64,000 nt of DNA from Clostridiaceae bacterium (GTDB lineage Bacteria > Bacillota > Clostridia > DSM-8532), in contig JAAYNA010000111.1 in assembly GCA_012521105.1 (NCBI GenBank), forward strand, positions 1 through 64,000. The letters are read 5' to 3'. Positions 4,832 through 56,591 of this stretch are shown piece after piece. A program made the translations under genes and the position numbers. Under the pieces are notes generated by a model. It had not been told where the DNA came from. It saw only the letters and a program-made list of their open reading frames with translations, and searched no databases. The stretch's first letter is position 1. Each line of letters opens with the position of its first letter.

Positions 4832-6104
4832 TACCATCACTCCCTTTCAACAAAGCATACCCTGATGGAATATCAGTGAGTGGGAAGTCGCCGGGTAATA
4901 TATGATTGTCAATAACAACATTGCAACCAATAGCTATATTATCGGGCACTATGGTATTGGAGCCGATTACAGTAATTTTTGATTGATATATTTTGCTGTT
5001 GAAAATGTTGTCGGCATATTCCCCTACGCCGCTATTAACACCTGAACCAATGGTTGTTTTTTCTCCAACAATTGTGCAGTTAAGGTAAGAGCCATGTTTT
5101 ATGGTGCTGTTTGACATAATTATACAATTTTCAATATTAGCATTTTCTTCAATAGTAACTCCAGAAAAAATAACAGAGTTCCTTACATTTCCGAAAACCA
5201 TACAACCTTCCGCAATAATGGATCTCGATACATATCCGTTTTCACCAATATAATGTGCGGGTTTTATCGGATTAGGCGTATAAATTTTCCAGTTTGGATC
5301 AAACAGATTAAATTGAGGAACACGGGTAATCAAATCCATATTGGATTCATAGTAAGCCTGTATGGTTCCTACATCCCTCCAATAACCGGAGAAAGTGTAT
5401 GCCCAAAGGTTCTTACCATCCTTAAGAAGTTTTGGGATCACATTTTTTCCGAAATCATGGTCGGACTTGTCATCGTGGTGGTCTTCAATCAGGCATTCTT
5501 TCAGGACGTTCAGATTGAATATGTAAACGCCCATTGATGCAAGATTACTCTTTGGTTCTGGTGGCTTTTCCTCAAAGCCGTATATTTTACCTTCATCAGT
5601 CGCATGAATAATACCGTAACGATGCGCTTCTTCAACAGGAACCTCAATTGCTGATATGGTAACATCTGCGTTGTTCTTCTTATGAAAGTCCAGCATCATG
5701 GAGTAATTCATCTTGTAAACATGATCCCCCGAAAGAATTATTACATACTTCGGATTCTGTTCTTCAATATAATGCATATTCTGGTATACTGCATCGGCAG
5801 TACCTGAATACCATTCTCTCTTAAGCTGTTTTGTGAAAGGAGACAAAATGGTGACTCCGCCATTCATTCTGTCCATATCCCAGGGCTTGCCAATCCCGAT
5901 ATGATGATTAAGCTGCAGCGGCCTGTATTGGGTAAGAACACCTACCGTATCAATGCCTGAATTAATGCAGTTGCTTAATGAAAAATCTATAATACGATAT
6001 TTTCCACCATACATCACAGCGGGTTTGGCTATAAGCTTTGTTAAGACACCAAGCCTGCTTCCCGCTCCTCCGGCCAGAATAAGGGCAATAATTTCCTTAA
6101 CCAT
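4824..6104 (-). CDS. glgC: Glucose-1-phosphate adenylyltransferase catalytic subunit
   Basis: Makes ADP-glucose from ATP and glucose-1-phosphate, the committed step of glycogen synthesis. Seen: the nucleotide loop LAGGAGSRL near residue 10, [15 protein letters not shown], the sugar-binding GTADAVYQN near residue 103 and [10 protein letters not shown] near residue 180, then a C-terminal beta-helix domain with hexapeptide repeats. The 426-residue length is normal. An AGGAGG site 5 bases before ATG 6104 fixes the start. It is first in the minus-strand cluster glgC-glgD-nucleosidase-splB. No glycogen synthase or branching enzyme gene lies in the window. Confidence 0.96.
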
Positions 6105-55892: not shown

Positions 55893-56230
55893 TAACGATA
55901 CTCAAAAATATCCCACCTCTTACAGGTGACGGGTAACTATTTCCCACCTCCAAACATTGAACACCAGAACCTGAATCCAGCGATTATAGGTACAGCCCAC
56001 CCAGCTATAGGGGCAGACGATCCTGTCTGTCCTGATTCTTTACAGGTATGCTCAAAATCTACGTCAAACGTGCATAAAAAGCGGGTGTTAAATACTCTCA
56101 GCATATAACCTGCCAGTTAAACTGCTTAATTCTTCTTTCCATCGCTCCCATAATTTTTTGCACTTTCTGACTTCGATACTCAACCGAAACCTGCAACTTC
56201 ATTCTACCTCTAACAGGTGGTTGCGCATCT
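55893..56230. repeat. Decayed CRISPR repeats
   Basis: Copies related to the better repeats at 56499 and 56562. The clearest is 56029-56058 (23 of 30 positions as in the 56562 copy, including TTTACAGGTA and CTCAAAAT). Weaker ones centre on ACAGGT at 55922-55927, ATAGGT at 55986-55991 (64 bases on) and ACAGGT at 56213-56218, and isolated repeat tails such as GATACTCAAAAAT lie near 55897. Spacing is irregular, as expected of an old array that has lost units. Confidence 0.4.
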
Positions 56231-56498
56231 ATTTTCCATAACAGGCAGCAAGTTATAGGCATATTATAACATATTTATCGTAAATTCTACCATATATTAT
56301 ATTAAATTTCAATTTATTATAGGCAGATAAAGCTCATTTTCAATATGAAGTAGTGATAAAGCTGTAAAATTCCTCTTTTCTGCAGGTAGACTAAGAATTT
56401 GACACTAACAACAATCATCCTTTTGCAGAGCTTCAATTTCTGAAATAGAAAGAATCTAAACACCTTCTTGGATATTTCGGCTTTAGTTGTATTACTTC

Positions 56499-56591
56499 GT
56501 TTCAATCCCTACAGGTAAGCTAAAAACCCGGACCCACGGCTTAGAAGGCCGTTGGGTTGCAGTTTCAATTCCTTACAGGTAAACTCAAAAT
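56499..56591. CRISPR. Relict CRISPR unit: two repeats and one spacer
   Basis: Repeat one (56499-56527) and repeat two (56562-56591) share GTTTCAAT at the left, CTTACAGGTAA or CTACAGGTAA in the middle and a CTCAAAA-like or CTAAAAA-like right end; about 29-30 bases each. This matches the GTTTCAATTCC-type repeats of clostridial type I arrays. The 34-base spacer (56528-56561) gives a 63-base period, normal for CRISPR. No cas gene is in the window. The repeats differ from each other at several positions, so the unit is decaying. Confidence 0.6.

Follow-up and report, generated by a model that had tools for sequence, protein, structure and literature searches.

A spacer of a decayed CRISPR array whose most likely source is an attachment junction at tRNA-Arg(UCU)

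In the 64,000-nucleotide stretch of DNA analysed here (the window, to which coordinates given without a contig refer), a degenerate CRISPR array holds a spacer that carries the anticodon arm of a tRNA-Arg(UCU). From what DNA was this spacer taken, and does it point at the host's own tRNA gene? The original prediction offered three origins: a phage-borne tRNA-Arg, an attachment (att) site, and self-targeting, which could have explained why the array decayed. The features of the locus are collected in Table 1.

Table 1 Features of the decayed CRISPR locus in the window.
Feature	Coordinates	Strand	Remarks
Upstream CRISPR repeat (ATTTTGAGTTTACCTGTAAGGAATTGAAAC)	56562..56591	-	Best-preserved copy in the block; C185 repeat consensus matched at 26/30
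CRISPR spacer, 34 nt	56528..56561	-	7 nt non-tRNA (56561-56555) + 27 nt tRNA-Arg(UCU) (56554-56528)
Downstream CRISPR repeat, 29 nt (GTTTTTAGCTTACCTGTAGGGATTGAAAC)	56499..56527	-	Copy of the C185/C115 repeat family
Heavily decayed repeats (probable)	56306-56335, 56369-56398, 56428-56459	-	Roughly in register, 60-70 bp steps
CRISPR leader remnant	56059..56190	-	5' of the repeat on the minus strand
Decayed repeat next to the leader, from a second, orthologous array	56029..56058	-	20-22/30; beside the leader remnant

On the minus strand, the spacer (TGCAACCCAACGGCCTTCTAAGCCGTGGGTCCGG) reads TGCAACC followed by CAACGGCCTTCTAAGCCGTGGGTCCGG, the former being non-tRNA sequence and the latter running from tRNA position 25 through the anticodon arm and the variable loop. 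The arm itself, ACGGC-CTTCTAA-GCCGT, is found at 56552..56536, where it had been predicted, and is followed by GGGTCCGG. Spacer positions 8-34 were identical (27/27) to the host tRNA-Arg(UCU) gene, or 28 nt when one G of the repeat is counted. By an arithmetic estimate, the chance of a 27-mer match in 3.4 Mb on both strands is of the order of 1e-9; the claim that a match of about 25 bases would hardly arise by chance was thus borne out. The host gene lies at ~81380-81456 of contig C132 in the genome holding the window (G000), the match falls in the region of 81407, and ARAGORN called the gene a tRNA-Arg(TCT), directly after a tRNA-Gly(TCC). Indeed, when the 26-nt core of the spacer was searched in the genome with up to three mismatches, it was found at two places only, namely the spacer itself and C132:81407-81432. 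Spacer positions 1-7, however, were identical to the host gene at 1/7; the reading of the spacer as tRNA-Arg sequence therefore holds for 27 nt and fails for the first 7 nt, which the original prediction had left out.

The border between the two parts is sharp and lies at tRNA position 24/25. At its other end, the tRNA part stops in the variable loop/T stem, where the spacer ends, and the tRNA 3' end is beyond its reach. The variable loop in the spacer, GTCCGG (GGGTCCGG), has the same C in this genome and in the relative G018, whereas the nine other relatives compared have GTCAGG or GTCGGG; the shared C fits an element matched to the attB of this host. The two flanking repeats differ mutually at ~5/30 positions and the tRNA part shows 0/27 changes. 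At half the repeat divergence per copy, such an unchanged tRNA part has a probability of ~10%, and hence it gives no evidence of selection. The foreign ACCC of the spacer is complementary to the GGGT beside the anticodon stem (56534-56561), so that the hairpin is lengthened with one bulged A; the probability of this pairing by chance was estimated at a few percent.

If the six mismatches of the spacer were scattered point mutations, the probability that all of them fall in one terminal 7-mer would be 1e-5; hence, the seven bases are not mutational noise. Furthermore, AGAGC occupies positions 21-25 in 119/119 distinct viral tRNA-Arg(UCU) genes, intact according to ARAGORN, and the spacer has AACCC; the seven bases are therefore not a tRNA D arm. 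The remaining simple reading is that they would mark a junction of the tRNA 3' part with other DNA. Seven foreign nucleotides are too short to name a source.

The flanking repeats, on whose membership in some CRISPR family the original prediction depended, do belong to one, and the sequence between them is in this respect a CRISPR spacer. The same repeat family is found elsewhere in the genome: C185 has an intact array of it, it occurs where C115 starts, and C13 has one copy. The upstream repeat presumably supplies the 5' handle ATTGAAAC. Two of the three heavily decayed repeats gave 17-19/30 matches and the third was recognised by eye with an indel; singly they are weak, and the argument for them is their spacing. 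The leader remnant was aligned with the C185 leader at a score of 35 (best of 200 shuffles, 16) and with the C13 leader at a score of 25 (shuffles, 15). The leader lies 5' of the repeats ending ATTGAAAC at C185, at C13, in the window and in the same-genus genome G024; since this holds in every copy, the crRNA is read from the minus strand, with TGCAACC at its seed end. No leader was identified directly 5' of the repeat at 56562-56591, to the right of 56592. Another block of decayed array, with weak repeat-like copies, was observed at 55905-56058, on the left side of the leader remnant. The C13 locus (L042:5340-5433) consists of a leader and a single ATTGAAAC-family repeat with none further, that is, an empty or collapsed array.

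At the orthologous spot of G024, between M23-peptidase and nagA-like genes, there is an intact array of four repeats (L110:4893-5120, G024:C7) with an intact leader (L110 ~5121-5270, delimited by eye), and none of its three spacers is tRNA-like. The window array is accordingly a true CRISPR locus of some age, decayed in this genome, and the intact orthologue makes this decay look like ordinary erosion.

The genome has two CRISPR repeat families. One, GTTGAAATCTAACCAGAATGGAATGTAAAT, goes with a complete type I-B operon on C115 (cas6b-cas8b-cas7-cas5-cas3-cas4-cas1-cas2) and forms the array after it (C115 end, L053 16083-16442); the other, ATTGAAAC, is that of C185, the C115 start and C13. No adjoining cas genes were recognised at the ATTGAAAC-family arrays, and a single Cas1 was found in the genome.

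Junctions of the same kind were observed in viral sequences. Of the distinct viral sequences that contain the anticodon arm, 124 in all, five carried the 3' half only, and 16 further loci came to light with a pattern tuned for a base at position 24 other than that of the tRNA; the 3'-half-only copies at these 21 viral loci were not called tRNA by ARAGORN. The left homology of the viral halves ends 1-8 nt before CCTTCTAA (8 in L257 and 6 in L265, whose border is at the same base as that of the spacer, likewise 6), positions that are loosely informative, as the tuned pattern limits the possible borders and shows that such sites exist but measures no border distribution. At five of the halves (L265, L300, L302, L305 and L309), a frame for a phage integrase (PF00589 Phage_integrase, Pfam) lies within ~170 bp. 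The spacer, too, joins part of a tRNA 3' half to non-tRNA sequence, with the border where integrases cross over. In the Islander survey, a 3' tDNA fragment was left by 3760/3919 mapped islands, and the anticodon-centred site was used by 2083 islands (PMC4383910).

Taken together, these findings suggest, with a probability that we put at roughly 0.7, that the spacer stems from the attP (or attR) junction of a phage or element integrating into tRNA-Arg(UCU), with its seed and PAM on the foreign side. Elements that integrate into tRNA genes carry a copy of the tRNA 3' part, which restores the gene when they integrate. A temperate phage or integrative element would have used the host tRNA-Arg(UCU) gene as its attB, and anticodon-centred integration would place a junction between the element arm and the tRNA 3' half in both attP and attR. 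The spacer would have sampled 7 nt of the element arm and the first 27 nt of the tRNA copy. With the crRNA running 5'-TGCAACC..., the element side would hold both the PAM and the seven bases with which the seed begins. By type I seed rules, Cascade with this spacer would be expected to bind the free and the integrated element, if interference ever occurred, but not the intact host tRNA gene. Since Cascade would not find the intact gene, the spacer would be harmless to the host and tolerated, and the array would have eroded after its acquisition. The spacer is thus regarded as an essentially ordinary memory of foreign DNA, not as evidence of self-attack.

Several points stand against an att origin: the ACCC/GGGT complementarity, which it does not predict, the shortness of the foreign part, the end of the spacer short of the tRNA 3' end, and the lack of an element with this junction in any collection or relative searched. 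The 34-nt junction gave no match in IMG/VR with either exact or relaxed patterns, no protospacer was found in about 85,000 genomes (genome_contigs), and the spacer, with up to three mismatches, was absent from the relatives (391 genomes of the class, 32 of the family and 33 of the order). Searching the 34 bases, as had been proposed, was productive on the host side, where 27 nt match the tRNA-Arg(UCU) gene, but BLAST against phages and plasmids gave matches to the tRNA part only. An integrated element had also been looked for at the host tRNA-Arg locus; the site is unoccupied, and the genes downstream were read as rimP, nusA, a ylxR-like gene and infB. In the relative G025, a second tRNA 3' half on C108 was considered as an integration and proved to be an assembly overlap of contigs C49 and C108. 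In the part of the literature available to us, no description of a spacer across a tRNA attP junction was found, which is weak evidence of absence.

Elsewhere in the genome, a decayed tyrosine-recombinase fragment with one TAA stop (G000:C94:8984-9181, L315) lies ~300 bp from a tRNA-Trp (C94:8623-8695), and in the 3-kb locus L022 the 3' end of this tRNA-Trp was not found a second time. This fragment is possibly the scar of an old integration, and tRNA-integrating elements may have visited the genome.

Among the other origins, derivation from the host itself is unlikely. The spacer would then come from the host tRNA-Arg gene, or would be a chimeric prespacer or the product of a template switch, with its 5' end replaced or mutated, and toxic self-targeting would have led to the decay of the array. 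The 27-nt identity to the host gene, including the variable loop of the G000 type, agrees with this, and the pairing of the foreign ACCC with GGGT is what a hairpin-templated rewrite might leave; such a rewrite, however, must also leave an extra A at position 26. The mismatches are on the seed side only, which scattered drift would hardly produce (1e-5, as above), and drift that altered the repeats and spared the whole tRNA part leaves the 7-nt block unexplained. Self-targeting takes a match of seed and PAM in the own chromosome, and a crRNA with six of its seven seed-side bases mismatched should not target the host gene. Moreover, the sibling array in G024, intact and without this spacer, points to erosion in the lineage. 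The proposal that self-targeting caused the decay is accordingly not upheld. Still more doubtful is an origin in a whole tRNA-Arg(UCU) gene of a phage; the D arm of that gene would have to be unusual. Many phage tRNA-Arg genes exist, with exact matches of up to 24 nt to the anticodon arm, but these matches stop at spacer position 8, beyond which the D arm that lies 5' of the anticodon arm is missing from the spacer (AACCC vs AGAGC). Positions 22-24 are A, C and C in the spacer and G, A and G in all 119 viral genes. A pyrimidine at tRNA position 24 breaks the usual Y11-R24 pair. The phage-borne gene is thus disfavoured against the intact viral genes, and the att site, with its sharp border and the five viral halves beside Pfam-confirmed phage integrases, is the best supported of the options originally proposed.

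We also considered readings that leave the origin of the spacer aside. That the unit is a guide of another sort, either a regulatory one like the antitoxin CreA or the homing guide of a CRISPR-associated transposon directed at the tRNA, is very improbable. In favour of it are the mini-array, whose repeats are degenerate, and the partial match to tRNA-Arg(UCU), which the CreT of H. hispanica sequesters (PMC8501985). CreA, however, works through its seed, of which nt 1-5 and 7-11 pair with a neighbouring promoter (PMC8501985), and the seed pattern, with 0 or 1 mismatches, occurred nowhere in the window but in the spacer; nothing resembling creT came to notice in the general analysis. From a homing guide one would expect pairing of the seed with the target, which the spacer does not show. 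A TniQ search of the genome gave no match, an uninformative result because control genomes likewise gave none. It is equally hard to believe that the tRNA similarity is a decayed integration scar and not a CRISPR spacer: degenerate repeats would suit a scar, but the 34-nt spacing, the flanking repeats of one family, the further repeats roughly in register, the leader of the same family nearby and the intact array at the orthologous G024 locus all argue against it. The least credible reading is that the unit is kept for an effect of its crRNA on tRNA biology and not as a DNA-targeting memory; folded as a lengthened anticodon-arm hairpin of tRNA-Arg(UCU), the crRNA might, for instance, distract an anticodon nuclease from its substrate.

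The feature is real and of a known kind: a CRISPR spacer that in all likelihood derives from an attachment junction at tRNA-Arg(UCU). If the junction is true, immunity could be provided by a spacer 80% identical to the host's own tRNA gene without self-harm, with the seed and PAM on the foreign side. Such a seed-side rule can be tested on CRISPR databases by asking whether long tRNA matches of spacers always end on the seed side, and whether they do so at integrase crossover positions.

In comparison with known systems, the locus resembles type I ATTGAAAC arrays directed against temperate phages and integrative elements in its 30-nt repeats, 34-nt spacer, leader and foreign-derived sequence. 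Unlike with ordinary type I spacers, the protospacer would straddle the border between element and tRNA, most of the spacer equals a host gene, and the array is decayed. It also resembles the anticodon-centred attP/attR of tyrosine-integrase elements (Islander 'A' sites, PMC4383910), in which a 3' tRNA fragment starting in or just before the anticodon stem is joined to non-tRNA DNA; the five viral examples named above adjoin an integrase, whereas here a 34-nt copy lies inside a CRISPR array with no integrase nearby. With CreTA (PMC8501985), the locus shares a degenerate mini-array and the involvement of tRNA-Arg(UCU), but it has no seed match to a neighbouring promoter, and the tRNA similarity resides in the guide and not in a toxin RNA.
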